Assembly: GCA_963565915.1 (NCBI GenBank)
Contig: OY751492.1
Coordinates: 620,001 to 684,000 of the forward strand
Direction of reading: 5' to 3'
DNA from: Entoloma clypeatum
Lineage: Eukaryota > Basidiomycota > Agaricomycetes > Agaricales > Entolomataceae
DNA length: 64,000 bases
Below, one piece after another: positions 8,881-64,000 of this stretch (position 1 is its first letter; each line of letters begins with the position of its first letter). The notes beneath the pieces are model-generated. The model was not told the DNA's origin. It was given only the letters and a program-made list of their open reading frames with translations, and searched no databases. Both the position numbers and the translations under genes were made by a program.

Positions 8881-9204
8881 GGTACATGAACAGAACCTCC
8901 CCACATGAGGAATACCGCCCATAGCAATTCTAAATGCGGATGGATCACCAAATCGACAACAGAAAGCATCTGCAAGGGCTTGTGGGCCAAAAATATTCTG
9001 AGGAGACGGGGGTGCGGATTCTATGGGAGAAGTGGGGATCGGAATATTATGCGGAGGTGTGATGGGCCAAAAACCCGGAGGTGTCGGAGTAGTCGGAGTT
9101 ACAGGGGATAGTTCTGTTAAACGTTGTTCGACATTTTGTAGAACTTGCTGCCTAGAAGTGCCAGCTTCTGCAGCTTTTGCTGTCTTGGTGTTTCGGAGTG
9201 CCAT
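8881..9204 (-). pseudogene. Fragment I gag, N-terminal piece
   Basis: It starts MALRNTKTAKAAEAGTSRQQ at 9204, forty bases inside the LTR. A proline-rich segment with PTTPTPPGFWPI and IPIPTSPIESAPPSPQ follows. The leader position and proline-rich N-terminus resemble the gag starts of elements D and E. The frame stays open to 8797, but the last part is probably element B DNA. No zinc knuckle remains. Confidence 0.5.
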
Positions 9205-9244
9205 GACTAGCAGGAATCCAAAAACGGTTTGAGTTCGAATATAC

Positions 9245-9956
9245 TATTAAGTAGGTGAAACGTCGGAGCTTCGTCGAAGTCTGTCGGAGGTCGGACGTAG
9301 GACTGAGACCGGAGCGGAACTCCGGAAATGCGGAGGAACGATGAAGGGGAGGGACATGGCTTCAACGTATGTGTTGCGCCGCCGTTTGTTGGATAAGGTG
9401 TCCCAATTTCAGGAGGTCGGAGGAGAGGTCGGAGGTGCGGAGGCTCTCGGAAAGATCTCGGTGAGAGACACGTTGATGTGGAAATGGTTGGACAACGTCG
9501 GAGTTGTGACTCGGACACAGTACTGAGCTCGTCGAAGGGTAACGATGGAGGAAGAGCAGTAGATGAGGATGTCGTCAGCGTATTGTACCACAGTGAGGAT
9601 CTCTGGCATGAACGGGGAGTAGAGGAGTGAACTTTGTTGATATTCAAACTGAGGAACTACAGGTATGGTACGAGCTTAAATACCTAAGTGAGATTACTTT
9701 ATGGAGATGGTCGGAGTAGGTCCGGAGTTGTGGCGTAAGTTGCCAGCGACTGTAACGAACATCGGAGATGTTGGTCAACGGACCATGCGGAAAAGGCAAG
9801 CATAAGTAAACGGGAATATGAATATGAAATGCATAAAGGCATGGAGTTATGAATATGAAATGCACGATGGCAACATGCGGAGATGCGGAGGTAACGGATG
9901 TCCGGAATGTCGGAGGAATATCGGAGTGGATCGGAGATTCGGAGACAGATATAACA
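9245..9956 (-). repeat. LTR of fragment I
   Basis: It is 712 bp. Read on the minus strand it starts TGTTATATCTGTCTCCG and ends near CCTACTTAATA, where the solo copy at 3844-4524 has CTTAACA. It has a TATTTAAG box followed after 31 bases by AGTTTGAATAT (forward 9640-9650). The leader sequence ATATTCGAACT (forward 9232-9242) starts two bases after the LTR and pairs with it with one G-U wobble. It is dense in CGGAG/CTCCG words. Confidence 0.85.
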
Positions 9957-12583
9957 GACGTACTGAAAGATGCGGTCTACTTCAATAAAATGGACATCAT
10001 GTGGGGCTATAACAACGTCTGGATTAAGGAGGGCGATGAATGGAAAGCTGCCTTCCTCACCAGTCGAGGATTGTTCGAACCATTGGTCATGTTTTTTGGT
10101 CTTTGCAACTCCCCGGGAACGTTCTCTCGAATGATGGCTAGTCTATTCCGGGACCAGATCCGCCGACGTATCTGCGTGATCTACATGGATGACATCGTGG
10201 TTATCGGTAAAACCAAGGAAGAACTCGCGCGAAACACTGAAGAAATCCTACAGATCCTATCAGACAATGATTTGTTCCTAAAGGAGAAGAAGTGTTTATG
10301 GGAAGTAACGAAATGTCCTATATTGGGATATGTGGTTGGTGAGGGACATGTTGAGATGGAACTGAGAAGGTGGATACAATTCGAAACTGGCGAGCACCCA
10401 CATCAAAAAAGGAAGTTCAGAAGTTCCATGGATTTGCTAACTTCTATCGACGTTTTATTGAAGGATACTCAAACATCGTGAAACCTCTCACCGCGCTCAC
10501 AGGCGGTATGGCATTTACTTGGGGACCAACAGAGCAGCAAGCTTTTGAAGGTCTCATATGGGCAATTACATCGGCACCAGTCTTGGCATTACCGAAACCA
10601 GAGGGACAGTTCAGGGTTGAAACTGATGCATTGGGCTATGCAATTGGAGCAGTACTCTCTCAGAAGCAAGACGACAAATGGCACCCCATCACGTTCTTGT
10701 TGTGGACCATGTCCGCGGCCGAACAGAATTACGAGATATATGACAAAGAACTCCTGGCGGTCGTGGAAGCATTAAAAGATTGGAGACACTATCTGCTCAA
10801 AGCCAGGGAACGTTATGAAATCTTGACCGATCACAAGAACCTGGAATATTTCCGTCGTCCTCAGGACCTGAATCAACGACAGCGACGCTGGAAAATGAAG
10901 TTACAAGACTATGACTTCGAATTACGGCATGTGCCCAGCAAGACCAATGCAAAAGCGGACATCCTGTCACGCTTACCCTGGTATGAAGCAGAACTCGAAC
11001 CACAGGACAGTGACCAAATGCTCAAGGAGGGACTATTCTTGAAACAGTTGGAATCAGAAGATATGGTACAAATGGAGATGTTCACGGAGGAACAATTCTT
11101 TGAAGGAGGTGAAACATCTGATTCCATCAAAATTGGAAACATCACAACCATTGAAAATCCGTGGATCGCACACATCAAGGGTTCAAACCGCATGGAGACA
11201 GAAGTAGCGCAGGGCCTACAAAAGAATCCTCATTGGTATCAGCAGGAGAATGGGATCACCTATGCAGGAGAACGAGTCTATGTCCCGCCAGACCCACAAT
11301 TACGACAAGAATTGATGTTTGAGTCACACGATGCACCAGTGGCTGGACATCCAGGACAGTACCGGACACATGAACTCCTCACTCGCACCTACTGGTGGCC
11401 TACCATACTGCATGATGTGAAGAAGTACGTGAAGGGTTGCGACACTTGTCAATGCAACAAAATTAACCGGCAAAAGCGACATGCTCCGCTACACCCCCAT
11501 GCAGCACCAAGTCACCCATGGGAAGACATAGGAATCGACGTCGTAGGACCAATACCAGAGTCTGATGGAAAGAATGTGATTTTGGTCATCACAGATAGAC
11601 ATTCGAAGATGCTCCATCTCATTCCGACAACCGTGGAACTATCAGCTGAAGGATTAGCCAAGATCTATCGGGATCAGATATGGAAGCTTCATGGGATCCC
11701 CAAGAAGATCATCAGCGATAGGGGACCGCAGTTCGCCACGAAGTTCATGGAGATACTCTGCCGCATGCTAGGGATCAAAAGGAACCTGTCCACCGCATAC
11801 CACCCACAGACTGACGGACAGGCCGAGCGATCGCATCAGGAAACGGAAGCGTTCTTACGAAACTTTGTCAACCATCTACAGGATGATTGGGCTGAATGGA
11901 TCGCAATCGCAGAGTTCCAGTACAATGACAAAGAACATCAGGCGACGAAGCACACCCCATTCTACCTCAACTATGGTTTACATCCGTGGAAGGGAGAGCT
12001 CGTGTTAGAAGATACCAATCCAGCTGCTAACGACTTCTTGAAAAAACACAAACAGGCACAAGAAGAAGCCAATGCAGCACTGAAACAAGCACAGGATCAG
12101 ATGAAGAAGACAGTTGATACACGGCGAAGTCCGTCTCGGAACTACCACATCGGGGACAAGGTGTGGCTGGAAGGGACTAACATCAGGACCGATCGACCCT
12201 CAAAGAAACTTGATGCACTCCGACATGGACCATTCAAAGTCCTAGAGAAGAAAGGAGCTAGCGCATACCTTCTTGATCTTCCGAAGACTTGGAAGATGAT
12301 TCACCCTGTGTTCAACGAGACCCTGTTGTCACCATATGAAACTCCGAAGTACGCCATCCAGAAAAAGAAACCAGCCCCTGATCTGATCATTGTCGAAGGA
12401 CGAGAAGAGTACCATGTGTCTACGATCCTAGACTCTCGAAAGTTCTGCAGAAAGATCCAGGACCTCGTCCAGTGGGAAGGATATGGTCCAGAAGAGAACA
12501 CGTGGGAACCTCGAGCTAATCTTCAGAACGCTCAAGATTTGATCCGTGATTTCCATCGGCAGAACCCGTCTCGCCCACGATAA
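9957..12583 (+). pseudogene. pol: Element B pol: RT, RNase H, integrase, chromodomain
   Basis: RT starts in the middle, after fragment I (YFNKMDIMWGYNNVWIKEGD), and has the active-site box YMDD at about 10180. A one-base indel near 10360 shifts the frame. From 10370 a long open frame holds the end of RT ([16 protein letters not shown]), RNase H ([44 protein letters not shown]), the H2C2 finger, the integrase core ([26 protein letters not shown]) and the chromodomain ([29 protein letters not shown]), ending at TAA 12581-12583. From RNase H to the chromodomain it is a clean 737-codon frame. Protease and the first RT blocks are gone, so the gene is dead as it stands. Confidence 0.93.
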
Positions 12584-17753: not shown

Positions 17754-17765
17754 TTACCCCCCTTT

Positions 17766-18215
17766 CTAGATCTCGACTTCCAGGCGAGATATGATGTCGT
17801 CAGGGGTGTTCGTGAAGTTTTCATAAAGTTTAAATTCCAATCCTTCAAAGATGTTTGCGTGTAAGTGCCGGGGAGCATTTGGGTTTAGTTTATAGAAGTC
17901 TTCAACCGCTTCTTGTGAATGTTCTAGGTGATTCTCAGGTTCCCACGTGTTGTGATCCAGAGTCAGACCTTCCCATTGCACTAAATATTCCAGCTGTCCT
18001 CTCTTCAACCTTGAGTCAATAACTTTAGCGATATCGTACTCCTCTTCGCCATTGATAACTATTGGGTTTGGTGCCTGCACCCTTTGTGATCTAAATAGTG
18101 GCTCTTTAAATAGTCGGACCCGTGATACATTGATGGCTGGGTGGATTTTCCAAGTTTTTGGTAATTTAAGTTCTATGGCATGTGAAGAAATGATTTTGGT
18201 TATGTCATAGGGCCC
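17766..18215 (-). pseudogene. pol: Element C pol, C-terminal part with chromodomain
   Basis: This is the downstream half of the integrase gene cut by element D. After the duplicated ggccc it continues GPYDITKIISSHAIELKLP, then HPAINVSRVRLFKEP. The chromodomain is EYDIAKVIDSRLKRGQLEY, then LVQWEGLTLDHNTWEP. It stops at 17766-17768, directly at the purine tract. Joined to 27567 the chain is continuous. Confidence 0.92.
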
Positions 18216-18774
18216 TGTCACGTAGCGTGTTTCTCAACGTCGGAAAATGTTGGACGAGTCGGAGCGGAGTAGCAGAGGAGCGGAATGCGGTAAGTGCGAT
18301 GTTGGCAGAAAGGACCTGGCTTCAACTTGTGCGTTGCGCCCCACTCTTTGACGTGGTCCTCGATTTTGGATTGGCGGATGTCGGATGAGCGGATGAGCGG
18401 ATGAGCGGATGAGTGGATGAGCGGAGGTGACGGAGAGAATGCTCAAAGACAAGTAGAGACGGATGCGAATGAGGTATAACATATGATATTTGAACTGAGG
18501 TTCTACGACAGGTTTGTACACTATTTATAGTAGACTAGAATGATCAGCATTACTATAAGTGATGTGCAGATATCGGAGTTGACCATTGGAACATTCGGAG
18601 TACGGAGAGTAGCAAATGAAAAGTGAACAACATATGTCTACTTGTAAGTATGGTTGAGATGTTACGTAGTAGAAGTATATTCAATATAAATAGAATGTTG
18701 TTGGAGCGGATGTCGGAGCGGATGAATCATCAGAGTCGTCGGATAAGTCGGATGTGAATCGTATGGTTATGACA
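18216..18774 (-). repeat. 3' LTR of element D
   Basis: Forward it starts TGTCACGTAGCG and ends TTATGACA. The inverted ends are TGTCA/TGACA. The purine tract on the minus strand is CTAAGAGGGAAATAC, directly upstream. It is dense in CGGAG/CTCCG words, with a short tandem run of GATGAGCG near 18385-18425. Confidence 0.95.
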
Positions 18775-18905
18775 GTATTTCCCTCTTAGGGCCGAACCCT
18801 GAGGCCCAGATGAGGTAATCCATGTGACCGTTGGTTGAAAAGCTTTGTGTGTGATCTTTCTCTCTTGTCACCCAACCACAACATCTATCCCGATGCCTAT
18901 CTGTT

Positions 18906-19850
18906 ATGTCTGCTGAGAACTCACCCCTCGCCGCTCTTCATGCTGAAAGGGAGCGCCAGAAGAAGGTCACCGAAGAGTTGGAGAGGGAGCTGCAGGAGGC
19001 AGAGGAGCGCACGAAGGAAGATGCAGAGCGCGCGGAGGCAAAGAGGGCGGCGAAAGAGCAGAGACGAGCAGAGAGGAAGGCAGAGAAGGCGAAGGCGAAG
19101 GAACCAGTTGTGGGTGCGGATGCGGCGAATGCGGAGGTGAAGAAGGTCCAGCTGCAGGGGGTTTTCAAGAATATGCCTGCGAGTTACGAGCAGGGGAAGG
19201 AGGATTGCACCTCCTGCTTGAAAGCGGGGGACTTGTGTTTTTGGCCATCGGAGTGAGTTTTTCCTCTTTCTTTATATGCTTCGTTATTAACTTGTTCTTT
19301 AGGAATGACAATGCTGCATTTAAAACGAAGCTGCAGAACGGGAGCGGAAGCGGAGTCGGAGGTGAAGCGGAGGATGACCAAGGCGGTGAGGGTCGGAAAG
19401 GCTAAGGTGGCAGGTGGTGCGACGAAGAACGTGAAGGCGGGATCGTCCAAGGGAGAGGGGACCGCGGAGGGATCATGGATAGCCGCAGCGTCAGAGGAGC
19501 CGGAGGGGTTTGGTCCGCCGGAGGTGGTCATAGGCATGGAGGTGGTGAGAGGGCTTAGGAGCATGATAAGGGAGATGCGGCTGATAAAGGCGGAGTTGAA
19601 GGAACTGTGGGAGATCAAGGAGCTTTTGACGGTTATCGCGTGGAGGGAGGATTCGGAGGCTTCGGAGGAGGGATCCGACAAGGACGAGGATGCGGAGGAG
19701 TATGATAGGGTATTGGAGGAGTTGGCAAAGGAGGTAGAAGAAGAAGAAGAAACAAAGAAGTGGAAGCGGATGGAGGAAGCGGAAGAGGAATCCGGATCGG
19801 AGTGGAACGAGGAGACGGAGGGGGTATCTAACAAAAAACAGCGAAAGTAG
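18906..19850 (+). pseudogene. Antisense accessory gene of element D, two exons, frameshifted
   Basis: It is encoded on the strand opposite to pol, convergent with it; the two stop codons are 44 bases apart. Exon 1 (18906-19252) starts MSAENSPLAALHAERERQKK. It is a long Glu/Arg/Ala-rich coiled coil and ends with CTSCLKAGDLC, the first half of a Zn2Cys6-like cluster. A 50-nt GT-AG intron (19253-19302) follows. Exon 2, in the frame that matches the E homologue, gives SEVKRRMTKAVRVGKAK, a leucine-rich helix, a very acidic tail and SNKKQRK at the end. The splice enters the wrong frame, and the CKGC part of the cluster is lost, so this copy is decayed. The homologue is at 56601-57578. Confidence 0.75.
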
Positions 19851-27015: not shown

Positions 27016-27017
27016 AC

Positions 27018-27561
27018 TGTCACGTAGTGTGTTTCTCAACGTCGGAAAATGTCGGACGAGTCGGAGCGGAGTAGCGGAGGAGCGGAATGCAGTAAGTGCG
27101 ATGTTGGCAGAAAGGACCTGGCTTCAACTTGTGTGTTGCGCCCCGCTCTTTGACGTGGTCCTCGATTTCAGATTGGCGGATGAGCGGATGAGCGGATGAG
27201 TGGATGAGCAGAGGTGACAGAGAGAATGCTCAAAGGCAAGTAGAGACAGATACGAATGAGGTATAACATATGATATTTGAACTGAGGTTCTACGACAGGT
27301 TTGTACACTATTTATAGTAGACTAGAATGATCAGCATTACTATAAGTGATGTGCAGATATCGGAGTTGACCATCGGAACATTCGGAGTACAGAGAGTAGC
27401 AAATGAAAAGTGAACAACATATGTCTACTTGTAAGCATGGTTGAGATGTTACGTAGTAGAAGTATATTCAATATAAATAGAATGTTGTTGGAGCGGATGT
27501 CGGAGCGGATGAATCGTCGGAGTCGTCGGATAAGTCGGATGTGAATCATATGGTTATGACA
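27018..27561 (-). repeat. 5' LTR of element D
   Basis: It is 544 bp with TGTCA/TGACA ends and closely similar to 18216-18774. It carries TATAAATA and the self-priming donor segment. CGGAG words are frequent. Small differences in the GATGAGCG run explain the length difference. Confidence 0.95.
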
Positions 27562-27566
27562 GGCCC

Positions 27567-35540: not shown

Positions 35541-36628
35541 CACACCTTGTCTCCAATGCGGTAGTTCTGAGACGGACTCCGTTGTGTGTCAACCATCTTC
35601 TTCATCTGATTCTGTGCCTGTTTCAGCGCTGCATTGGCTTCTTCTCATGCCTGTTTGAGTCTCTTCAGGAAGTTGTTGGCAGCCAGGTTGGTGTCTTCCA
35701 ATACAAGTTCTCCCTTCCAAGAATGTGAACCGTAGTTGAGGTAGAATGGTGTGTGCTTCGTCGCCTGATGTTCTTTGTCATTGTACTGGAATTCTGCAAT
35801 TGCGATCCATTCCGCCCAATCATCTTGCAGGTGATTGGTGAAGTTTCGTAAGAACACTTCTGTTTCCTGATGTGATCGTTCAGCCTGTCCATCAGTCTGT
35901 GGATGGTATGCAGTGGACAGATTCCTTTTGATCCCTAGCATGTGGCAAAGTATCTCCATGAACTTTGGTGAACTGTGGTCCCCTGTCACTGATGATCTTC
36001 TTGGGGATCCCATGAAGCTTCCATATCTGATCCCAATAGATCTTGGCTAATCCCTCAGCTGATAATTCCACGGTTGTCGGAATGAGATGAAGCATCTTTG
36101 AATGTCTATCCATGATGACCAGGATTGCATTTTTTCCATCAGATTCTGGTATCGGTCCCACAACGTCAATCCCTATATCTTCCCATGGATGACTTGGTGC
36201 TGCATGGGGATGTAGCGGAGCATGTCATTTCTGTCTGTTGATCTTGTTGCGTTGACAGGTGTCACAACCTTTTACGTACTTCTTCACATCATGCAGGATG
36301 GTAGGCCACCAGTAGGTATGAGTGAGGAGTTTGTGCATCTGATACTATCCTGGATGTCCCACAACTGGTGCATCATGTGATTCAAACATCAGTTCCTGAT
36401 GTAGTTGTGGGTCCAGTGGAACATAGACCTGTTCACCTGCATAGGTGATGCCATTCTCCTGTTGGTACCAATGAGGATTCTTTTTTAGACCCTGCGCTAC
36501 TTCTGTGTCCATGCGGTTCGAAGCCTTGATGCATGTGATCCATGGGTTTTCGATGGTTGTGATGTTTCCAATATTGATGGAATCAGATGTTTCACCCCCT
36601 TCAAAGAATTGTTCTCCATGAACATCTC
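35541..36628 (-). pseudogene. Integrase fragment of the A/B chromovirus family
   Basis: The minus strand shows [14 protein letters not shown], the H2C2 finger (SHDAPVVGHPG, then CDTCQRNK), [15 protein letters not shown], the active-site region with a frameshift near 35960, GQAERSHQE and a tail to about DKVWA. There is a TAG in place of CAG/CAA near 36345 and a TGA in place of CGA near 36224. The right end is cut exactly by the 5' LTR of element E. The left end stops before the chromodomain. Confidence 0.88.
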
Positions 36629-37112
36629 TGTTACATTCCGATCCATTCCGATGATTTCCGACCAATCCCGACACCTCCGACACCTCCGACATTTTGACTA
36701 ATACTTATTATGCATACTTACTGTTATGAATCTCGTTACTACGTACATTACTTACATCCGACCATTTTACTTATGTTAAGAATCTCCGACAGCCACTCGT
36801 TATCTGACTCCGACGAAGCCACATGTCCTCCGACATAGTATTTAAACTTATGTAGAATCGTGTATTAGCTTCAGTTTGAATATCAACTTAGATTCGACAT
36901 CATACCTCCCGTCCTCTTTCCAACTCTTAACTTGAGTCCGACCTCTGACCTCCGATCCTCCGATCCTCTGAAATAAGGACACCAACGTATTAGCGAGGGC
37001 ACAACACACAAGTTGAAGCCAAGTCCTTGCCCCTACGTTGCACGTGCTTCGACCCTCTGACTTTCCGACGCGTCCGACGTAGCTCCGACGTTTTGTCGAT
37101 CAGTTCTTAACA
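36629..37112 (+). repeat. 5' LTR of element E
   Basis: It is 484 bp with ends TGTTACATTCCG and CTTAACA. TATTTAAA lies at 36839-36846 and CAGTTTGAATAT at 36872-36883, about 33 bases on. It contains well over ten TCCGAC/TCCGAT words. Confidence 0.95.
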
Positions 37113-37114
37113 GT

Positions 37115-37126
37115 ATATTCAAACTG
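37115..37126 (+). promoter_or_regulatory. Primer-binding site of element E, self-priming type
   Basis: ATATTCAAACTG begins two bases after the LTR and is the perfect 12-bp complement of CAGTTTGAATAT at 36872-36883. Confidence 0.78.
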
Positions 37127-37158
37127 CCACTCGCTTATCCATATTTCAAATTCCAGTT

Positions 37159-38376
37159 ATGGCAGCCTGCACCACTCAGAACTCCCACGCAGCAGCAGCA
37201 GCAGCGGAAGCTTCAAACCTGCAGGACACCAGGGCGACATTTCTACATACATTCCAAGATATTCCCACAGAAGAATCTGCACCCAAACCTGACCCCATAT
37301 CTCCGACACCTCGTCTCCGAACACCTCAGACACAAGGACCTCTGATTCCTGAAGAATTCTGTCCTTTTAAATCTCCGACCTCTCCTTTTGACGATAACAA
37401 TCCTTTCCGTCGCGAGCAAACTCCAAACCTCGCCAAAGCAATTATGCTTATGACGCAGGAGCTCCGACGTAGAGAGACTCCAAAAACTCCGAAAAAGAAG
37501 TCGAAGGAACCCGACACTTTTGACGGTTCTGACTCTCGGAAACTCACCAGTTTCCTCGCACAATGCACACTATATTTCCGAAACAACCCTGCCTTTGACA
37601 ATGATGATAACAAAGTCAGTTTCACTCTGTCGTACCTCTGAGGAACCGCGCTCAAATGGTTTGAGCCCACCCTCTTGGGAGAGTCCGACGACGACTCTGT
37701 CTGGTTGGACGACTGGTCCGCCTTTGTGCACATCCTCCGATCCGAATTCGGACCTATCGATCTGACCGGAGAAGCAGAGGATAGCCTGGATCACCTTCGG
37801 ATGCGCGACAATCAGAAGATCCTACGTTACAACATGGACTTCAAACATCTTTCTGCTCACACACAGTGGGATGATGGCGCGCTCCGATATTGGTACTATA
37901 CCAGTTTAGCGGAACACATCAAGGATGTTTTGGGGACTTTTCCCAAACCAAAGACTCTTGCCGAGTTGAAAGTAATGGCCCATAACATTGATGCTCGCTA
38001 CTGGGAATGTCAACGCGAGAAATCGCGCTCCTCCGACAAATCTACTCCAAAGTCTGACAAATCCAACAAATCAGACAAAAAACAGACCCCCGCTTCATCA
38101 TCCTCCAACAACAACTCCTCATTGTCTAAACCCAACTCGCAAAAATCGTCATCCACCTCTCCGAAATCCGCCCTCTCCGACAAACTTGGCAAAGATGGGA
38201 AATTAACTCCCCAAGAACGCCAACGACGATTTGACAATAATTTATGCATGTTTTGCGGCAACGTTGGTCATCGGGCTTCCGACTGCTCGAAGAAATCGTC
38301 TTCTAATGCCAAAGCAAAGGCCCGCGCGGCCCAAGCTGAGGACAAATCGGAGAAGACGACCGAGTCAAAAAAATAG
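37159..38376 (+). pseudogene. gag: Element E gag with one TGA stop
   Basis: It starts MAACTTQNSHAAAAAAEAS. A proline-rich region and then the capsid blocks EPDTFDGSDSRKLTSF, LYFRNNPAF and FTLSYL follow. TGA (37639-37641) stands where element D reads arginine (SYFRGTALKFFEP). Behind it come GTALKWFEPTLLGES, EFGPIDLTGEAEDSLDHL, a Ser/Lys-rich linker and one zinc knuckle CMFCGNVGHRASDC. It ends A7-TAG at 38367-38376. Apart from the single TGA the 405-codon frame is intact. Confidence 0.9.
38361..38376 (+). promoter_or_regulatory. -1 frameshift site of element E (A-AAA-AAA before TAG)
   Basis: The gag frame reads GAG TCA AAA AAA TAG. Slipping back one base gives ATA GTA AGC AGT CCT, and this frame runs without a stop into the protease (ETLRLNVSAL). 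It is conserved with 25674-25683. Confidence 0.75.
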
Positions 38377-38775
38377 TAAGCAGTCCTCAGATTCCAGCAC
38401 GTACTGGGGATTGTGTTGGCTCCTTTCGTGCACCTTTGGAAACCCTCCGACTCAATGTGTCCGCTCTCTCAAATCCGAACTCTCTATGTATTGATTTGAT
38501 ATCTCCAACCTTTTCCGATTCTCTTCCGATAAAGACTCTTATTGATCCTGGTTCTACACATTGCTTCGCAGATACCAGATTTATTTCTTCTTTAAACTTA
38601 TCTCCGACTTCGATTCCTTCACCTATGGTTTTGAAACTTTTTGACGGTTCTTCAAATACTTATATCACGCAATCTATCGATCTTCCTCTCCGATTTCCTT
38701 CCGGTGAACTTCTGACCGTCGCATTTTATGTGACAACCCTCGATTCGTCTTGTAATTTGGTTCTAGGACACAACT
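38374..38775 (+). pseudogene. pol: Element E protease, start of pol, cut by an F-family LTR
   Basis: The -1 frame gives ETLRLNVSALSNPN, then KTLIDPGSTHCFADTRF, where the usual DSG reads DPG, and LVLGHN. An F-family LTR begins at 38776. The active-site change Ser to Pro (TCN to CCN) would probably inactivate the enzyme. The homologue in D has LIDSGSTHCFID. RT and RNase H that should follow are missing from the window. Confidence 0.85.
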
Positions 38776-39075
38776 TGTTGAAGTTCCACCTGGGCGCTAG
38801 CCACAGGTGTACTGAGCAACATAGCTACAGTGGAAGTACTCTACGATACCGCTATGGTCACTTACATGGTTTGGAGGGGGTAAGGCTAGTGAGAGCGGTT
38901 GAGGCTGGTGAGAGCGATGGAGCTGGTTAAGAGTCAAGAGACAACTTGTTGATATTGACACTTATATACCGTACTACTGTTTGTACCAACCAAACAAGTA
39001 TGTAATGAAGATATGTAAAGGTCACGTGATGTAATCTAATCTAATCTAATCTACGTGATGGGAAAAGTTTCAACA
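38776..39075 (-). repeat. F-family LTR at the left end of the copia block (3' LTR of F1)
   Basis: Forward ends are TGTTGAAGTTCC and AAGTTTCAACA. It is inverted relative to the LTRs at 51020 and 55076. The purine tract of F1 (TAAATATGGGGGGG on minus) adjoins at 39076-39092. It contains a short (TAATC)n run. The left flank is caact in element E protease. Confidence 0.93.
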
Positions 39076-44243: not shown

Positions 44244-44284
44244 TGTTGAAGTTCCACCTGGGCGCTAGCCACAGGTGTACTGAG
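44244..44284 (-). repeat. F1 5' LTR, inner part (split by element G)
   Basis: Forward it starts TGTTGAAGTTCCACC and breaks off at tgtactgag, where element G entered. The other part is 50579-50797. On the minus strand the primer site GGTTATGGGCCC (forward 44232-44243) follows directly. It is complementary to the anticodon region of initiator tRNA-Met, as in Drosophila copia. Confidence 0.9.
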
Positions 44285-51327: not shown

Positions 51328-51632
51328 GGTTATGGGCCCCGGATAGCAGAGGGACTTGGGAAACGCTGGCAACAGCGAGTACCTGCCCACTCTACCCTGG
51401 TTGGCAAAGAACCGATCGAAAGATCTAGGTTCTGAGTCTTACTTCTTCACATATGAACCTGGGAACGTCATTACGACAAGTACCTGTCATGAGACGTCCC
51501 TAAGGGGATTGACCTAGTACACTCCATGTGGAAATGTTGATCGCACCTTATACGTTTCCGACATATAAAGGGTTTTCCTGTGACCGCTATTCCTAAAGAG
51601 AATATGTCATAAGAAATCATTTAATTGTTTTC

Positions 51633-54600: not shown

Positions 54601-55006
54601 CTGGTTACTTCATATCGCTGGCGTCTGGAGCAGTAACATGGATTTCATCAGCACAAAAAACCATTGCCCTCTCTTCTACGGAAGCAGAATACATGGCGCT
54701 ATCAGATTGCAGTCGCGCAGTAACATGGCTTAGAAGCATGCTTGCCGAACTTGGAATGTAGATCGGATCGGTTCCAATCTATGGAGATAACAATGGCTCT
54801 GTCTTTATCGCATCCAATCCTGTAACTGAGAAGCGATCCAAGCACATCGACATGCGATTTCACTTCGTCAGAGAAAAAGTATCTGAAGGAATTATTATGG
54901 TTGAATTCATTGAAGGAGTGAATAACCCTGCAGACCTTTTAACTAAGAATCTGGGGAAAATCCTCTTTAGCAAGTTTATCCCGTACTTTGGACTACTCAA
55001 AAACTA
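51633..55006 (+). pseudogene. Element F2 Gag-Pol, internally deleted copia polyprotein
   Basis: The gene is collinear with F1. Gag is present (FDGIDYQSWAEKMKSYL) with a compensated frameshift around DICDWVYLGVQRAGPENL. After SGKPSVWKKNEK it jumps in frame to PYFRVTNEIPDMSS, so protease, the H2C2 finger and the integrase core (about 470 codons) are deleted. RT is whole (YGLKQAALAWWREL, YVDD) but the frame stops at TGA 54246-54248 where F1 has KILEGMGM. RNase H continues (TDSDWASDKNTRKSTTGY) to a TAG at 54759-54761 where F1 has CAG. Remaining sequence to 55006 matches the F1 C-terminus. It is a non-autonomous derivative. Confidence 0.93.
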
Positions 55007-55075
55007 GATGAAAAAAGAGTACCTATATGGGAAAAAGTAAGATGTATTTAGAAGTATGTACTAAATATGGGGGGG

Positions 55076-55384
55076 TGTTGAAACTTTTCCATCACGTAGA
55101 TTAGATTAGATTAGACTACATCACGTGACCTTTACACATCTTTGATTACATACTTGTTTGGTTGGTACAAACAGTAGTACGGTATATAAGACCAGGAAAC
55201 TGTCAATATCAACAAGTTGTCTCTTGACTCTTAACCAGCTCCATCGCTCTTACCAGCCTCAACCGCTCTCACCAGCCTTACCCCTCCAAACCATGTAAGT
55301 GACCATAGCGGTATCATAGAGTACTTCCACTGTAGCTATGTTGCTCAGTACACCTGTGGCTAGCGCCCAGGTGGAACTTCAACA
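55076..55384 (+). repeat. 3' LTR of copia element F2
   Basis: It is preceded by the purine tract AAATATGGGGGGG and ends CTTCAACA. The next bases, ctatt (55385-55389), are the target duplication whose partner is at 50798-50802 on the other strand. Confidence 0.94.
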
Positions 55385-56573
55385 CTATTGCAAGTCATGT
55401 ACCACTTGCATGCGATCGAAGCCACAAAGACACAAGCCTTACGGTCTACTCAAACAGCTTCCGATCCCCGAACGACCTTGGAATTCTATCTCAATGGATT
55501 TCATCGAGACCCTTCCGACCTCCGACAACTTTGATTCAATCCTCGTTATCGTTGACCGATTAACGAAACAAAGTATTTTCATTCCGACAACAATTCACTG
55601 CACCTCTGAAGACCTTGCCGTTCTCTTCGTATTGCATGTCTTCTCTAAACACGGCGTTCCCGAACATGTCACCTCTGACTGCGGCCCCGAATTCATCTCC
55701 CGATTCTTCCGATCTCTTGGAAAGGCTCTAAACATGACCCTCCACTTCACCTCCGGTTACCACCCCAAAGGTGATGGCCAAACCGAATGCACTAACCAGA
55801 CCCTCAAACAGTACTTGCGGATATTCTGCAACTACCAACAGGACAACTGGTCCGCTCTCCTTCCGATTGCGGAGTTCGCGTACAACAACGCACCTAGTGC
55901 TACCACTGGCATATCTCCCTTCTTTGCTAACAAGGGTTACCATCTGAACATTACTGTTCACCCGGAATGAGACCTTGCCTCTTCCCGAGCCCAATCCTTT
56001 GTGACCGACTTAGACGAACTTCACCAAGAACTGAAAGCCACCATCTCCAATGCTCGACGACGTTACCAGAAGTCCTCCAACAATAATCGGATCGCACCTC
56101 CGACATTTTCTGTCGGACAACAGGTTTTCGTCAAAGCACAGTTCTTCCGCACAACACGCCCATCCAAGAAACTCTCAGAAAAGTACTTGGGACCATACGA
56201 GATCATTGCACAACCCGGCACACACTCCTTTACCCTCCGACTCCCCGACACATTCCATGGAGTTCACCCCGTCTACCACGTCTCCATGCTTGAACCCACA
56301 ACTCCGAACACCATTCCAAATCGGACCCAACCTCCGCCTCCTCCAATTGACATCGACAGAGAACTTGAGTACGAGATTGCTGAAATAGTCGACTCAAAGA
56401 TCGACCAACGACATAGCTGCAAGCTACTATATTTCATCCGTTGGTTAGGATATGAAAACACTGATGAAGAATTCTCTTGGCTACCAGCCGATGAATTGGA
56501 AAACACCCCCGAGCTTGTCTCCGACTTTCACTCTGCTTATCCCGACAAACCGGGCCCGCTCACATCGCTCTGA
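55385..56573 (+). pseudogene. pol: Element E integrase and chromodomain-like tail, one TGA
   Basis: The chain starts within the zinc finger, YCKSCTTCMRSKPQRHKPYG. The core has SMDFIETLPTSDNFDS, IVDRLTKQSIFIPTT, TSDCGPEF and GQTECTNQTLKQYLR; the three acidic residues are present. Two cysteines (TSDCG, TECTN) stand where arginine is expected, which fits CGC to TGC. TGA at 55968-55970 (HPE-stop-DLASS) fits CGA to TGA. The second half has FVKAQFFRTTRPSKKLS, YHVSMLEP and the chromodomain-like ELEYEIAEIVDSKIDQR, then FIRWLGYENTDEEFSWLP. It ends at TGA 56571-56573, 27 bases from the stop of the convergent accessory gene. Confidence 0.92.
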
Positions 56574-56600: not shown

Positions 56601-57578
56601 CTACTTAGTACATTGTTTCTTGTTTGACGGACCCTCCTCCTTGTCCTCCTCCTCCTCCTCCTCCTCCGCCTTCTCCGACGGCTCCGAAATCGACATGTCG
56701 GAATCGTCCGACAGCTCTGGCAACTCCAACCTCTTCCTATTCACAAGGTCCTTCCTAATCCTTCTCACGATCCTCTTCTCCAGTCTCAACTCGTGTGTCT
56801 CCTCCGCTGTATCCATCTCCGACTCCGACCCTTCCTCCGACTCCTCCGGCGACTTGGGTTGATACTCGGTGTTCACCGAGCCTTCGACTGCTGTTAGCAG
56901 TCGCCTCACCTGCCTCGTCTCCGCCAGTATCATCTTGAGGACACCCAAGACATTGTCCTCCGACCCACTCTCCAATGGCATCTCCGACGCCTTTTTCTTC
57001 CCCTTAATCACCTTCACCGTTTTCTTCACCTCCTTCACCTCCGACTTTCCCTCCGAAGCTCCGACCTCGCACTTCTTCTTGTCCTTGACACAACCCTTGC
57101 AGGACGACTTATTCCTGAAACAAAAGGTTAAAACAGAAGAGACGAACCAAAGAAGAACTTACTCATCGCGTTCGCATTCAACGCCCTTCACATTGCACCT
57201 ATCACAAGCGCCGACCCTGACCCCGACTCCCGACCCCTCTCCGACCGTCGCCGTCACCTCCTCTACCTTCCTTTTCTTCGTCACCTTCTTCTTCTTCTCT
57301 GCCTGCAGCCCCCCCGACCCCTTGCTCGATGCGCCTTGCGCAGCGGCCACTACATCGGCCCTCTTCTGAGCTGCCAGCTCCGACACCCAACGCATCTCCT
57401 CCGCTACCCGCATCTCCTCCGCTGTCCGCGCCGCCTCCGCAGCCCTCTCTTCCTCCGCTCTCCGCTCCTCCTCAGCCTTCCTTGCAGCCTCCTCCTCCGC
57501 TGCTCGCTTTTTTGCCTCCACCTCCGCGAGCTTAGCCTGCAGCGCCTCCATCTCCTTTTGAAAATCGGTTGCCGACAT
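56601..57578 (-). CDS. Antisense accessory gene of element E: coiled-coil Zn2Cys6-type protein, one intron
   Basis: The gene is on the minus strand, convergent with pol, between integrase and the 3' LTR. Exon 1 (57578-57163) starts MSATDFQKEMEALQAKLAEV, a long Ala/Glu/Arg coiled coil, then a basic KKKKVTKKRK stretch. A 48-nt intron (57115-57162) with GTAAGT and TTTCAG ends follows. Exon 2 (57114-56601) is in frame. Across the junction lies CDRCNVKGVEC, then eight residues, then CKGCVKDKKKC: the six-cysteine C-x2-C-x6-C-x8-C-x2-C-x6-C pattern of fungal Zn2Cys6 DNA-binding proteins. An acidic region and the basic end SNKKQCTK follow. The total is about 308 aa with no breaks. The homologue is at 18906-19850, with the intron at the same residue. 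Nuclear DNA binding is inferred. Confidence 0.82.
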
Positions 57579-57743
57579 ATTGAGGTTTTTTCGGAAGAGT
57601 TTTAAAACGAAAAGAGAATGGGGGAACAAGAAGAAAGAACCACTCAGACGGTATTTTCAACCAATGCATCACATGACGCAGTTCACGCGCACCGACCACC
57701 TAGGTCCTTAGGCCTCATGGGTTCGGCCCTAAGGGGGAAATAC

Positions 57744-58207
57744 TGTTACATTCTGATCCATTCCGACGATTTCTGACCAATCCCGACACCTCCGACACCT
57801 CCGACATTTTGACTAATACTTATTATGCATACTTACTGTTATGAATCTCGTTACTACGTACATTACTTACATCTGACCATTTTACTTATGTTAAGGATCT
57901 CCGACAGCCACTCGTTATCTGACTCCGATGAAGCCACACGTCCTCCGACATAGTATTTAAACTTATGTAGAATCGTGTATTAGCTTCAGTTTGAATATCA
58001 ACTTAGATTCGACATCATACCTCCCGTCCTCTTTCCAACTCTTAACTTGAGTCCGACCTCTGACCTCCGATCCTCCGATCCTCTGAAATAAGGACACCAA
58101 CGTATTAGCGAGGGCACAACACACAAGTTGAAGCCAAGTCCTTGCCCCTACGTTGCACGTGCTTCGACCCTCTGACTTTCCGACGTTTTGTCGATCAGTT
58201 CTTAACA
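57744..58207 (+). repeat. 3' LTR of element E
   Basis: It starts TGTTACATTCTG and ends CTTAACA. The purine tract CTAAGGGGGAAATAC lies directly upstream. It is 464 bp, with a 20-bp deletion relative to 36629-37112 around the CGCGTCCGACGTAG region. Confidence 0.95.
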
Positions 58208-58640
58208 GCCCCTCATCCCCAATGGCCTCCACTCAGGCCCCACCTGTCACTAATGGCCACCCCTCATCCCCAACGACTCCCCATGCCCAACGGCTGCCCC
58301 TCATGCCACACGACCTCCACTCACACCAGATGACCTCCACTCACATCCAACAGCTGCACCCCATGGCCAGCAGCCTCCACTTGCGCCCAATAGCCCTCTT
58401 GCATGCCCAATGGCCCTCTCTCTTGCCCAATTACCCCTCTCTTGCCCAACGGCCTCCATTCATGCCAAATGGCTTCAACCCACGCCCAATGCCCACCACT
58501 CGAGCCCAACAGCTCTCTCTCATCCCCAATGGCCCCGACTCATGCCCAATGCCCTCGACTTGCACGCAACACCTACCACTTGAGCCCAACAGCCCCAACT
58601 CATATGCCAAACGGCTTCCATTTATGCCCAATGGCCTGTC
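58208..58640 (+). repeat. Minisatellite of CCCAATGGCC-type units
   Basis: It has imperfect units like CATGCCCAATGGCCTCCACT and is the same family as 14930-16330. Long ORFs through it in all frames are composition artefacts. Confidence 0.8.
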
Positions 58641-58733
58641 ATGTAAATACATATGTGCATCCTGTACTACTATAAGGCATAGCACGAGTGCACTTGTGAG
58701 TTACCCAGATCTGTACTCACTGGTATTTTAAAT

Positions 58734-58830
58734 GTTCGAACCCATACTCGGATCCGCGGGTTCGAACCCATACTCGGATCCGCGGGTTCGAACCCATACT
58801 CGGATCCGCGGGTTCGAAACCCGCGAGTTC
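58734..58830 (+). repeat. 26-bp tandem repeat, three full units and one partial
   Basis: The unit is GTTCGAACCCATACTCGG then ATCCGCGG, starting at 58734, 58760 and 58786, with a partial unit at 58812. The three full units are identical. Each unit junction has GGTTCGAACCC, a perfect B-box consensus. Confidence 0.93.
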
Positions 58831-58849
58831 TTTGGGTACTCGCAGGTCA

Positions 58850-59390
58850 TCAAGTTCTTCAGGTACTCACAGGTTTATCTTGAGTACCCGTATGAAGGAT
58901 CGATAAATCCCAGTCTGAGATGTCCAGGCTCGGGCTTGGCCTGAAGCCCAGGGTTTGGGCCAGGCTTGGATTCTCAGAAAAGCGCACCTTAATATAAATC
59001 CAACCATTGCACCTATTCTTCTCATCTTCTAGACTATTAATATATACATATAATAGAGTATTTATACCAGAGGAACAGTCTGGATTTTGTTGTGTGTTTG
59101 GGGGTTTGATGATATTGGAGCCTATCTACTAATCTAAATATCACCCACCTTATCACTGAGGCAGAAGCCTACTCCTATATGTACTAAAGAAGGGGCAATA
59201 GAGACAAGAGGAATCCATTGAGTGGATGTGCTACTAGAAGTGCTTTTGTGGCATGCTCAGAGTTTTGATGGGAATTGAACCTACCTACTGATACAGGCAC
59301 CATTACCAATATTATAACAAGCCCTTAACATATTCTTATTATCTCTTTTGCCCCTTCTTTAGCATGTATGTGTGTATATTTCTACCGAAT
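58850..59390. other. No gene seen
   Basis: It is AT-rich after a short GC-rich start (CAGGCTCGGGCTTGG). Only small ORFs occur and there are no repeat ends. Confidence 0.5.
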
Positions 59391-59399
59391 AAATAAGGT

Positions 59400-60152
59400 G
59401 GACAATCTCTGGTCAGTGGGTGAGTATAGGATGGTGGGCAGTGGTTGGGCACGAGTCGACACCGTTGGATGTGTGTGAGGGCCATTGGGCATGAGTCAAG
59501 GTTGTTAGACATGAGTTGAGGTTGTTGGGCATGAGTGGCGGCAGCTGGGCCCAAAGAGGGGCTGTTGGGCATACGGAGGGAGGTTGTTATGCACGAGTGG
59601 CAGCAGTTGTGCACGAAGGGACACCATTGGGCATGAGTGAGGGCCGTTGGGCATCAGTATCGGCTGTTGGGTGTGAAGAGAGGTTGTTCAGCATGAGTTG
59701 AGGTCATTGGGCATGAGTGAGGGCCATTGGGCACAAAGAGGAGCCATTGGGCATCAGTATTGACTGTTGGGTGTGAAGGGAGGCCGTTGGGCACAAGTGA
59801 GGGCTGTTGGGCACAAGTCAAGGTTGTTGGCACAAGTCGATGCCGTTGGGCATAAGTGAGGGCCATTGGGTGTGAGTACCAGCTGTTGGGTGCGAAGGGA
59901 GGTCGTTGGGCACGAATGAAAGGTGGCCATTGGAAGGACGTCTGGGTGGGAGGAGAAAAGTGTCGATCACTGAAACATCAACTTCAACTTGTTGATCATT
60001 GATTGTTTGGCTCAACCAAATATCATGTGACCTCCCAAACCCATCCGAAAGGGTACGGGTTTTTGGAGGGTGAGAAATTCTGATCCTCACCCTTACCCTC
60101 CCTCACCCTTCCCCAAAACCCTGAGGATTTTGCATATTCTTGTCCATCACTA
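59400..60152 (-). mobile_element. hAT-type element, one end, with inverted minisatellite
   Basis: The right end reads CTTGTCCATCACTA at 60139-60152, matching the end of the element at 15010-16113. It is preceded inward by the same GGGTGAGG/ACCCTCC and GTTTGGCTCAACCAAA segments as that element in reverse. The minisatellite (59400-59935) is in reverse orientation (GGCCATTGGGCATGAG). The other end was not found, so the copy is truncated or rearranged. Confidence 0.7.
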
Positions 60153-60490
60153 GTTCAAAGGGGTGCAGCCCCCTCTGGCAAGCGAACATGATTGAAGGGT
60201 AAGAACCGCACAGGCACTTCTTTGAGGGGTAGGGTGCAGACACCCCCCAGCACCATCAATGGCCAACCTCACAAGATTGGAGTGCTCTTGTATTGTGCAT
60301 TCAAATACTCAAGTGCACATACTAATGTATTTGTGTATCACAGACTTCCCCAACCTAGTGCGAGGTCTTATCAGCTCGATAGAGCTTTGCACCACTTATT
60401 CTTCATGTGTACGTAGCTCCTCAGATTAATGTAGTTTACTCTATGTCAAGTGGACTCCACTATATAAATTGTTGATCCAAAAAGAAAGAA
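60153..60490 (+). mobile_element. 3' fragment of the LINE-like element family
   Basis: It runs collinear with 22707-23060, from AAAGGGGTGCAGCCCCCTC to the 3' end TATAAATTGTTGATCC and an A-rich tail (60478-60494). The coding frame is decayed, with many TG/CA where the other copy has CG. Its left border is the hAT end at 60152, so the hAT element was probably inserted into it. Confidence 0.85.
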
Positions 60491-60494
60491 AAAA

Positions 60495-61119
60495 TGTTAG
60501 ATTAGATTGAATTTTATTCAAAAAATGAAACTTTTGTAAGGAGTCCAATGGATTATGACTCCAATGGACACTATGGGAGAGTGTAAAGTAGATGAGACTG
60601 GGCCGGTTTAAACCAGTCCAGACCTATGTATATTATGACAAAAACAATAAATTAATTATTACAGTATTGTTTGGCAGGAGTTGGGCATGTGTGGCAGTCA
60701 TTGGCTCTTGATATATGTAGAGATACTTAGAAACTAATAGTAAGTATATATACAATTAGATACATGACCTATGTATGGTAGAGAGCTTGGGTAGCAAAAT
60801 GATGGATCAAATCACATTGCAGATTGTGATCAACAGTCCATCATGGGTTTCCTCAAACACAAAAAGCAACATTTCTTACTTCCTCCTTTCCACAACCACA
60901 TTGGATTACATGTAATATATATATACTATTTAGGCAATAGCATGGATATGGGTAACCCCTGAGGGTCATAGGTACAGGTTGTCACAAGTCCAAGTACAGG
61001 TTGTGTTTTCGTAACCTGCAACCCATCACATGTCATGCTATGTATACCACTTTCAACAACCCCACTACCTCTCCCTCTCTTCCTCTCTTGTGCCCAATGG
61101 CCACCACTCATGCCAAATG
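60495..61119. other. No gene seen before element J
   Basis: AT-rich DNA without ORFs of note. 61085-61115 has one or two CCCAATGGCC units. Element J begins at 61120. Confidence 0.5.
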
Positions 61120-61611
61120 TGTAAGGGCAACCATCCGATTTCCTCAATCCGACCCTCCGACACCTCCGACCCATCCTCCGACCCTCCGACCGTTGTGGTA
61201 CGTCTATTATTTATATTACTATACTTTATGTTTCCTTTCATTTCCATCTATCCTTCGACACCTCCGACCTCCAACACTTCCAACTCGTCCTCTGTGTCAG
61301 AGTGCACGTCGGAGCAATGATTTATACCACCACATGCACACTTCCAATTTACATATTCCGTTCCCATCCCTACTCCCGATCTTTGTCATATTTCAACATT
61401 CCTCTCCTCATTTCCAATTCTCGTCGTCTATATAGCTGTCTAGCCTGCAAGGGAATCCTCAGAACTTTCTCTTTGGATTTCCCTTGCAAGGTACACCTCG
61501 TATTGTACTTCGTAGAGTCTAATTTAACTTTGGATTTCCCTTGCAAGTCGTCCGACGTCGGAGTCGCTTCGGAGCACTTTGGAGTTGTTGGATCGTAAGG
61601 TCGCCCTTACA
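61120..61611 (+). repeat. 5' LTR of element J
   Basis: It is 492 bp with 9-bp inverted ends TGTAAGGGC and GCCCTTACA. TATATAG lies at 61429-61435 and AGAACTTTCT at 61461-61470, 32 bases on. It is rich in CTCCGAC words near the 5' end and has GGATTTCCCTTGCAAG twice (about 61473 and 61532). Confidence 0.9.
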
Positions 61612-61613
61612 GT

Positions 61614-61623
61614 AGAAAGTTCT
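61614..61623 (+). promoter_or_regulatory. Primer-binding site of element J, self-priming type
   Basis: AGAAAGTTCT starts two bases after the LTR and is the perfect complement of AGAACTTTCT at 61461-61470. Confidence 0.7.
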
Positions 61624-61691
61624 CTCTAAACAGACTGGGTACGAATTGTACCATTGAAGCCATTCCGCGCTTCGGAGTTGACGACACGGAC

Positions 61692-62968
61692 TTGAGTCCG
61701 CCCTCCTCCAATTCCGGTACATCTGACACCCCTTCCGATCCCTCTTCCCACCATTCTGCCTACCACTCTGTGACTGGTGACTCCGTATCGCACGTAGAAA
61801 TGGATGACCCCGAACGTCTTACTGCGCTTGAACCGCGAGTTCCAGGAACACCGCCAGACCCTCACCAACATTACCGCTCAACTCAAACAACTTATCCGTG
61901 CCGCTATTCCACCTGTTCCCATTCCCAACCCCAACCCGATTCCCCCTCCAGCGGAGGCCCCAGTTCTGGCCTTCCCGCCAGCCCCGATCGCACCTGCCAA
62001 TCCAGGTGTGCGTCGGGCCAAACCCGCAACTCCGTCGGACTTCGACGGAGCACGTACCACTGGTTGGACTTTTCTTAATTCTTGTGAACTGTATATGGGA
62101 CTGATTCCAGAACAGTTTGCAGATGATCATGCTAGGATCTATTGGGTGCTTTCCTTCATGAAGAGTGGACGTGCTGCGCGCTTTGCTGACCACGTCATCT
62201 GACAAGAGCGTCGGACCGGGGCTCCGTGTCACCAGACCTGGGTGCAGTTCTGAACTGTGTTCATCGCGAGTTCACTCCGAAAAACAAAGAACAAGATGCA
62301 CAGCTCATTCTTGAGGGAGAAGCCTATTACCAAGGTAGTCGGGATGTGGAGGCTTATATTGATGACTTCAAGGATTATGTTGAAAAGGCTGGGTACACCG
62401 AAGGAACAAACATAGTACTTAAGTTGCGACATGGCCTCCAATCCGACATCCAATCCAAAATTGTGACACTAACTTTCGGACGACCCATGGATGACAACCT
62501 GGATGCCTGGTATGCAGCTGCACGAGTCAACGATGATAATTGAATTGCCAATAAAGCTTTCAAGTCCACAGTTCCAACATGCCTGAACCCTTTCCGCACT
62601 GCTCCGACCGCACCAAAGGCAGCGGCAGGATCTGTATTTCCCCGACCTTTCATCCCCTATATTCTGTGTGCACCTCCGACAGTCGTTGCTCCGACTCCGT
62701 CCGTCCATGACCCCAATGCAATGGATATCGATGCCTCTCACGTCAGGGGTAAGAACACCAATGTATGCTTCAGATGTGGTAAAACTGGTCATTTCAGTCG
62801 CGAGTGTCCGCTCCGATTTGACATCTGATTCATGATGTTGGACAAACAGGAGGAGTACATGATGGACCAACTAGCCGCTAAAGATGCAGTGACGTCTACC
62901 TCCGACGTCGCTGAAGCGTCGGAGCAAGCGGAAGACAAACAAGAGGATTTTTCCCCCGACAACAAGTG
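61692..62968 (+). pseudogene. gag: Element J gag, broken
   Basis: Frames must be changed near 61830 and 62220. N-terminal pieces MDDPERLTAL and LNREFQEHRQTLTNITAQLK form a coiled coil. A proline-rich linker is followed by the capsid: FDGARTTGWTFLNSCELYM, IYWVLSFMKSGRAARFADHVI, TGA, then AQLILEGEAYYQGSRDVEAY, IDDFKDYVEKAGY, LRHGLQSDIQSKI and LDAWYAAARVNDDN, TGA. The zinc knuckle CFRCGKTGHFSREC stands near 62770. Then come LRFDI, TGA, FMMLDKQ and a last TGA at about 62966. The capsid is a good match to gypsy gag of fungi. All four TGA fit former CGA. Confidence 0.85.
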
Positions 62969-64000
62969 AATGGTGTGCCCTCATTGTCCACTAGCAATCA
63001 TTATGCTTCCTTGTCTATAGATGAATCAGATTTTACTTCTTCTCCCTATGACGTGGCGCAGAATGAACCCTCAGTCACACCTACCCCGACTCCGAAAATG
63101 GGAACGACGACTTCCGAAAAAATACATCCTGGCCTCCGACGGCTCCGACAATGCTATTGAACTAGATGTTGTTCTGGAGACAACAGACACCAAGGATACC
63201 CTTTCACAAAAGGCTCTTCTCGATAGCGGAGCGACTGGCTCCTTCATTGACCGCTCCCTGGTAGAGAAACATCGACTCAGTACCTGAAGGCTACAACGTG
63301 CAATCCCTGTCTACAATGTTGACAGTACTCCGAACGATGCTGGAGCAATATCGGAGGTCCTGGACATTATACTCCGATATCAGGATCACACAGAGCGGAC
63401 CCAGCTCACTGTAACTGGACTGGGAAAGCAGGATATTGTACTTGGATTCACGTGGCTCAAGGAGCACAATCCCGAGGTAGATTGGACCTCTGGGGAGGTG
63501 AGAATGAGTCGCTGTCCCACTCGCTGTCGGACTTGCCATCAGGAGGCCATTCAGGAGCAGAAGGTCCGCAAATTCAAGCAGGCACGCATCCGCACTTGTC
63601 GGATGGGTCCGACGCCAGATGCTGGATTAGCGGAGGAAGCCCCGCGAGGCCCTTGGGTGGAAGATGTAAGCGAGGACGAAGAACAATCATTGGATGAGCC
63701 ATTGGAAGACGATGCGGAGGAGGAAGACGAGTTTGAAGAGGGAGATTGCCTCTTCATTGGAGCCCTACCTCCGACATTGGAATTCTCCGAGCATCGTCAA
63801 CTACCTCACAATGCCTATCAGAGGCATTCCTCCAAAATCAGAAACCCAAGTCTTTTCGTGATTCTGTACCTAATCACTTACATGATTTTGAAGATGTATT
63901 TTCCAAGACCTCCTTTGACAATCTGCCAGAGGAATGTGTATGGGACTATGCCATTGAGCTGATCCCCGACGCAACTCCGACGGGTTGCAAGGTGTATCTG
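62969..64000 (+). pseudogene. pol: Element J pol: protease and start of RT
   Basis: ELDVVLETTDTKDTLSQKAL leads to the protease motif LLDSGATGSFIDRSLV, then HRLST, TGA (near 63285), RAIPVYNVDSTPN and IVLGFTWLKEHNPEVDW. A cysteine-containing stretch (MSRCPTRCRTCHQEA), a very acidic segment (EEDEFEEGDCLF) and, in another frame, the RT lead-in FEDVFSKTSFDNLPE and WDYAIELIPDATPTGCKVYL follow to the window end. The protease active site is intact. Truncated by the window. Confidence 0.88.

Follow-up and report, generated by a model that had tools for sequence, protein, structure and literature searches.

The locus described here raises the question of whether a retrotransposon can encode a protein that recognizes the element's own DNA. 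It lies in the basidiomycete Entoloma clypeatum, in a stretch of 64,000 nucleotides (hereafter the window; contig OY751492.1, positions 620,001 to 684,000 of the forward strand, assembly GCA_963565915.1), where a gypsy element with long terminal repeats (LTRs), designated E, carries a two-exon gene on the strand opposite to pol. An initial annotation had reported this gene in E and in a second gypsy element of the window, D, had likened its cysteine cluster to that of fungal Zn2Cys6 transcription factors, and had suggested a role in LTR regulation or in countering silencing. Copies were searched for in the genome of 60 Mb (20 contigs). The antisense frame is a real gene, conserved in most copies; the more surprising part, absent from the initial annotation, is a short CGG-containing word laced through the elements that carry it.

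An antisense gene with a predicted intron in three chromodomain gypsy families

Element E extends on the plus strand from 36628 to about 58185, interrupted by nested elements, and its 5′ LTR (36628..37070) and 3′ LTR (57743..58185) are 98.4% identical. Gag and the start of pol, located by tblastn with the proteins of copy L051, occupy 37111..38780 (plus) ahead of the nested insertions, while the pol tail (55377..56573, plus) comprises integrase, an SH3-like domain and a chromodomain and contains an internal stop in the window copy. This tail matches the rve and Chromo profiles with 33.1 and 32.3 bits, and the pol of D matches RVT_1 and Chromo with 124.4 and 29.5 bits, all above the cut-offs. 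E, D and a third family, F, are chromodomain gypsy families in which the antisense gene sits between pol and the 3′ LTR; its stop lies 27 bases from the pol stop in E and 44 in D, in agreement with the coordinates first reported. In E, the gene consists of exon 1 (57163..57578, minus), encoding an N-terminus that looks by eye like a coiled coil and the first half-cluster; a phase 2 intron of 48 nucleotides predicted from sequence geometry (57115..57162, minus; GTAAGT...CAG); and exon 2 (56601..57114, minus), encoding the second half-cluster, an acidic C-terminus and a basic end. The joined product of 309 amino acids bears out the completeness claimed for the E cluster, C-x2-C-x6-C-x8-C-x2-C-x6-C, whose two C-x2-C-x6-C halves span C125-C135 (57174..57206, minus) and C144-C154 (57069..57101, minus); the unspliced frame hits a stop within the cluster.

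The gene of D resembles that of E at the level of the family, the copy in the window being damaged. D lies on the minus strand between a 5′ LTR at 27017..27562 and a 3′ LTR at 18215..18775 (94.1% identical), and its antisense gene runs on the plus strand through exon 1 (18906..19252), an intron of 50 nucleotides (19253..19302; GTGAGT...TAG) and a damaged exon 2 (19303..19850). After removal of this intron, the window copy meets a stop after 149 amino acids and the second half-cluster is gone; exon 2 measures 548 nucleotides, whereas 12 of the remaining 14 D rows have 562-592. Two AG acceptors farther along, which correspond to introns of 78 and 84 nucleotides, would open the frame to the SNKKQRK end, still without the second half-cluster. 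The relatives of D have the full cluster, C-x2-C-x6-C-x11-C-x2-C-x6-C, and the gene is intact in 8 of 15 rows (6 of 13 places).

The carriers, given initially as two related gypsy elements, number three families with the addition of F (copies L060 and L061). F has the same layout, a cluster of C-x2-C-x6-C-x10-C-x2-C-x6-C in L060, and LTR pairs that are 99.3% (L060) and 99.8% (L061) identical. Elsewhere among the gene-bearing families, the LTR pair of L056 is 100% identical. For L061, the intron chosen by the script is an alternative split. A CGGA-laced fragment of F around an LTR also lies inside another gypsy element of the window (8962..9957, minus; blastn to L060/L061, 93-95%). Rows at 50-70% in the search with the F protein were not counted as further families, because wrong-frame low-complexity matches are among them. 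All three families have the intron in phase 2 after the third cysteine and before the fourth, which upholds the equivalent position described for E and D, and an alignment of the three proteins shows no substitution at any of the six cysteines. The antisense proteins of D and F are 33% and 30% identical to that of E, figures inflated by low complexity, against 76-77% for pol between the families; from one family to the next, then, pol changes more slowly than the antisense protein.

The cysteines of Zn2Cys6 proteins follow the pattern C-x2-C-x6-C-x5-12-C-x2-C-x6-8-C, and this spacing is present in all three families, with x8 (E), x11 (D) or x10 (F) between the half-clusters. F also fits a PROSITE-type pattern, and E and D depart from it in their first loop. 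Host-type matches to the Zn_clus profile (PF00172) occur in the genome as well, 39 of 56 of them above the cut-off. Canonical Zn_clus frames recur with equal scores (L057 3416-4228, L059 2749-3480, C2:3074309, C12:198951, and L058 2825-3610 on C6 together with other C6 places); some of these lie within 2-3 kb of E copies, and other mobile elements may carry them.

The genome contains 208 stretches matching the joined E protein, 167 matching a D fragment and 148 matching the F protein, totals that tally each exon separately and of which the E and D rows inspected are a part. The E table comprises 34 rows, namely the best-scoring matches (L011-L038) and a few others, at 33 places, L030 and L052 being the same place. 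The gene is intact in 26 of the 34 rows (25 of 33 places), a share biased upwards because L011-L038 are the best-scoring matches, and the frame is kept across both exons in 28. The intron reads GTAAGT...TAG in 30 rows, the exceptions being the window copy, with GTAAGT...CAG, L038 and L053, of GC- or GTGAGT-type, and L059, where it is unrecognizable. Among intact E copies, exon 1 varies between 362 and 419 nucleotides in steps of three, a regularity partly built in by an intactness test that demands an open frame, and the intron measures 48, 49 or 51-57 nucleotides.

Constraint on the frame is evident from the ratio of nonsynonymous to synonymous differences (pN/pS), which across 24 distinct intact E copies is 0.318 in frame, whereas the two alternative frames give 1.24 and 1.01; it falls to 0.12 in the cluster (residues 124-156), reaches 0.52 in the N-terminal part, and is 0.281 in the pol tail of the same copies. 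Divergence in the E intron (0.055) is roughly double that in the exons (0.031 and 0.024). The gene is also linked to its elements: an E, D or F gene lies at most 6 kb downstream, on the opposite strand, for 110 of 150 scored RVT_1 matches (E 38, D 38, F 34; input of the tally 150, 120 and 117 places), at a distance of 2.3-3.4 kb (5-95% range), against 5 pairings upstream and 2 downstream on the same strand. Of the outcomes that the initial annotation had named as refuting its proposal, a lack of homologues in other element copies is not what the genome shows, and a host fragment captured by chance is excluded by copy number and constraint. Copy number, constraint and splice geometry also argue against a chance open reading frame. 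The persistence of the intron would be explained by its orientation: antisense to the genomic RNA, it would not be spliced from it and would escape loss during retrotransposition.

A short word laced through the elements

On the pol strand, the word TCCG occurs at 22.7 per kb in E, at 18.6 and 23.9 in two D copies and at 27.3 and 22.5 in two F copies, against 3.9-7.9 per kb for its reverse complement, CGGA, on the same strand. The LTRs share this density (22.6 in E, 35.7 in D and 34.4 in F); in the window, the 3′ LTR of E contains 10 TCCG and no CGGA, and that of D, read on the pol strand, 20 and none. Three other gypsies (G1, counted without its F fragment, G2 and G3) and two copias served as controls and contain TCCG at 5.1, 0.4, 3.7, 2.7 and 4.5 per kb, respectively; these five lack the CGGA lace, which rules out lacing as a general property of the elements of this genome. 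Among the control gypsies, G2 has its LTR adjoining the pol stop.

Codon bias is countered as a source of the lace by its distribution over frames and by synonymous shuffling. Lacing covers LTRs and pol in all three reading frames, with CTCCGA falling 11/11/11 by frame in the pol of E. The pol counts of TCCG, 68 in E, 89 in D and 103 in F against 30.1, 45.9 and 57.5 expected, were never reached in 500 synonymous shuffles, whereas the control pols gave z values of 1.8 (G1), -1.6 (G2) and 2.1 (G3); the E_L052 row of the shuffle set is a nested copia frame and was left out of E. TCCG sites are shared between E and F at 58%, the top of 26 testable four-letter words, between D and F at 54% (top of 49) and between E and D at 50% (third of 31), and the sites that do not coincide have turned over. 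The base that follows TCCG differs by family: it is A at 70% of E sites, C at 49% of D sites and mixed in F (p = 1e-10). Read on the antisense strand, the lace encodes Ser-Glu (GTCGGAG) or Ala-Glu (GCGGAG), and the low-complexity stretches of the three antisense proteins may owe their form to it.

The CGGA lace is also found, in both orientations, in K and K-like gypsies (window 60900..64000, plus, and L069, L063 and L066). The K-like stretch of the window continues past the window end, which places its 3′ end outside view; it contains CTCCGA 26 times and TCGGAG 11 times, against 1.8 and 1.3 expected, and across 409 bases its DNA is about 75% identical to that of the K copy in L063. The abundant K family is represented in full by L069, with a pol about 40% identical to those of E and D, a frame of 1,356 amino acids common to more than 40 rows of the K listing, and CGGA as the most enriched four-letter word of its pol when both strands are summed. 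A different word, AGTACC, is laced through a copia family and is confined to the pol strand, 17 to 0 at 38770-44284 (minus) and 12 to 0 at 51020-55384 (plus), and is distributed 6/2/6 by frame. Elsewhere in the window, 14000-18200 and 58200-60900 contain many GCCCAA/TGCCCA and TTGGGC-type words and look like degenerate minisatellites.

Candidate function and rival explanations

The reading that we consider most likely, with a probability of about 0.45 for the whole chain, is that the antisense protein sustains the activity of its own element by binding to it, in a manner similar to the VANC proteins discussed below. The gene would be transcribed from the side of the 3′ LTR and then spliced; the protein would enter the nucleus, where its cluster would bind CGG cores along its own element, in LTRs and coding sequence alike; and binding would keep the element active, either by stimulating the LTR or by removing silencing marks. 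The gene-less K would benefit in trans, as an unrelated beneficiary. The excerpted literature describes Zn2Cys6 proteins as typically binding CGG triplets, and Pho7 as using single-CGG sites such as TCGGACATTCAA (PMC5559640). To judge from the sequence, the CGGA lace favours binding to own-element DNA, and the two-strand lace of K points to double-stranded DNA. A more specific proposal, namely a self-recognition system in which the spliced zinc-cluster protein would read CGG words that selection has placed throughout the element, in LTRs and in all three coding frames, and would so mark the element's DNA for activity, protein and word would diverge together by family, and K would freeload, is put forward tentatively.

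Several observations weigh against this reading. Membership of Zn_clus, for which the initial annotation had suggested a profile search, is not supported by the profile: the 11.3 bits scored by E fall short of the cut-off of 21, and neither D nor F gives a match. When a profile of E, D and F is compared with solved zinc clusters, the sole match (6e33, S. pombe C27B12.11c) has a non-significant E-value of 9.3, and the F cluster alone has no match among them; for these reasons, the cluster is named zinc-cluster-type by spacing only. Constraint on D is weaker than on E, with a pN/pS of 0.47 against 1.02 and 0.58 in the wrong frames (six distinct copies), one of which is low as well. In the three gene-bearing families the lace has a strong strand bias, a pattern that binding to double-stranded DNA would not predict on its own, and, because the three are close relatives, the acquisition of gene and lace may be one joint event. 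The strongest arguments against linking the lace to the antisense protein are the laced K and the laced copia. In L069, the 3′ LTR begins at most about 210 bases past the pol stop and a zinc cluster is found on neither strand, while its pol contains 65 TCCG and 65 CGGA against 33.2 and 29.7 in shuffles; lacing therefore needs no gene in cis, and a strict pairing of gene and lace, which the laced K weakens, was dropped. In the copia family, AGTACC occurs 14 and 8 times against 1.8 and 1.2 in synonymous shuffles, and no extra gene was noticed.

The laced K suits an explanation in which the CGGA lace is read by a protein of the host, such as one of its Zn2Cys6 activators: any gypsy gathering the lace would profit, as K appears to without the gene, and the antisense protein would do other work (RNA export, or as a partner of Gag) or compete with the host factor. 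The copia laced with another word and the host-type Zn_clus matches of the genome also favour it. One common host factor does not predict a base after TCCG that varies among E, D and F, and the three most one-stranded laced families are precisely the gene carriers, so that we regard this explanation as unlikely, if a serious competitor. Were the antisense protein to bind the lace and instead repress sense transcription, limiting copy number as proposed by analogy with HBZ of human T-cell leukemia virus type 1 (HTLV-1), the antisense position beside the 3′ LTR and the coiled-coil-like N-terminus would find a natural place, and nuclear HBZ and APH-2 are described in the excerpted source (PMC11963269); the acidic C-terminal part, which would resemble an activation domain, and the recent activity of gene-bearing families indicated by the near-identical LTR pairs of L056, L061 and L060 make such repression decidedly improbable.

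A lace that acts at the RNA level, where the antisense protein or Gag would bind it as a signal for packaging or exporting the genomic RNA, would account for the marked preference for one strand in E, D, F and the copia and for words placed along the whole transcribed strand. It is at odds with the pol of K, where both orientations are about equally frequent, and with the CGG core of the word, and we give it slightly less credence still than repression. That the antisense frame is a mere by-product of lace and base composition, and no gene, is barely credible: the antisense-read lace does yield runs of Ser-Glu and Ala-Glu codons, which makes much of the protein low-complexity, but the cluster has a pN/pS of 0.12 where wrong frames lie near 1, the splice sites are conserved, the phase and place of the intron are common to three families, and K is laced without such a gene.

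Binding of the element by its own antisense protein remains our preferred reading, and the role in LTR regulation or anti-silencing suggested by the initial annotation is plausible and unproven. Because gene and candidate target can both be read from the sequence, the function is testable by an in vitro binding assay for each family. Leaving the protein aside, the lacing of gypsy families with a single core word in every reading frame, and of a copia family with a different one, needs explaining.

Relation to known systems

Antisense accessory genes of gypsy elements were already known; in E, D and F, such a gene and its candidate target occur in the same sequence. Judged by titles and abstract openings, with most subscription journals outside the scope, the literature yielded neither a zinc-cluster gene in an LTR retrotransposon nor words laced through the coding sequence of one. 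The whole E protein and residues 84-250 of D have no homologues in the protein collection searched, a weak negative, since homologues may be hidden by low complexity, by limits on length or by gene calls made exon by exon. The same collection has many pol relatives, the named ones among those listed being mostly from mushrooms (Leucocoprinus birnbaumii 72%, Trametes versicolor 65%, Pisolithus tinctorius 62%), with one row labelled as a Chlamydiales assembly. At the DNA level, relatives elsewhere amount to one contaminant contig, with a pol 45% identical and without TCCG lacing, and none were found among viral contigs.

Fungal Zn2Cys6 factors such as Pho7 and Gal4 have the same six-cysteine spacing, and the E, D and F elements contain a candidate word with CGG; the Pho7 site at tgp1, TCGGACATTCAA, as excerpted, resembles the E word GTCGGAG (PMC5559640). 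Unlike these factors, the E cluster lies mid-protein, is split by an intron, resides on a mobile element and scores below the profile cut-off. Among plant gypsies, additional antisense open reading frames are described in Grande (gene23), RIRE2 and Retand (TRP28 domain), with a function called unknown; some products are nuclear or predicted to bind DNA, which recalls the present gene, whereas they belong to other protein families, and the excerpts describe neither a zinc cluster nor a word interspersed through coding sequence (PMC7264820, PMC11963269). Closer in host is brtn, an antisense gene of the Boty-like gypsy elements of Botrytis cinerea, compared here through citing papers only (PMC8365987, PMC4227169, PMC7264820): it too is an extra gene, antisense in orientation, of a fungal gypsy element with a chromodomain, though from an ascomycete. 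A survey of fungal Tcn1-like elements also indicates, in a figure legend, an additional open reading frame of unknown function (PMC2864245).

HBZ of HTLV-1 is, according to the excerpt, likewise an antisense-encoded nuclear regulator of a retroelement (PMC11963269). It differs from the E, D and F proteins in having no zinc cluster, and homology is not claimed. HBZ also has a spliced form, and is a basic leucine zipper protein of an animal virus.

A parallel in logic is VANC, an anti-silencing protein that, in the text excerpted, binds short words repeated in its own VANDAL transposon; the words vary by family, and VANC6 acts also on an unrelated element bearing its word (PMC5735166). An element-encoded protein, a word in the element itself, family-specific words and an effect on an unrelated element would be the points of likeness (PMC5735166; PMC10398659), whereas VANDALs are DNA transposons of Arabidopsis, likened to E, D and F by logic and not by sequence. 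Should the lace be read by the antisense protein, VANC would have an equivalent among LTR retrotransposons, whose coding sequence would then carry a dense second message at the level of DNA. Of the combination that characterizes VANC, an element-encoded protein with a family-specific repeated word, gene and family-specific lace are both present in E, D and F, but K has the lace without the gene.
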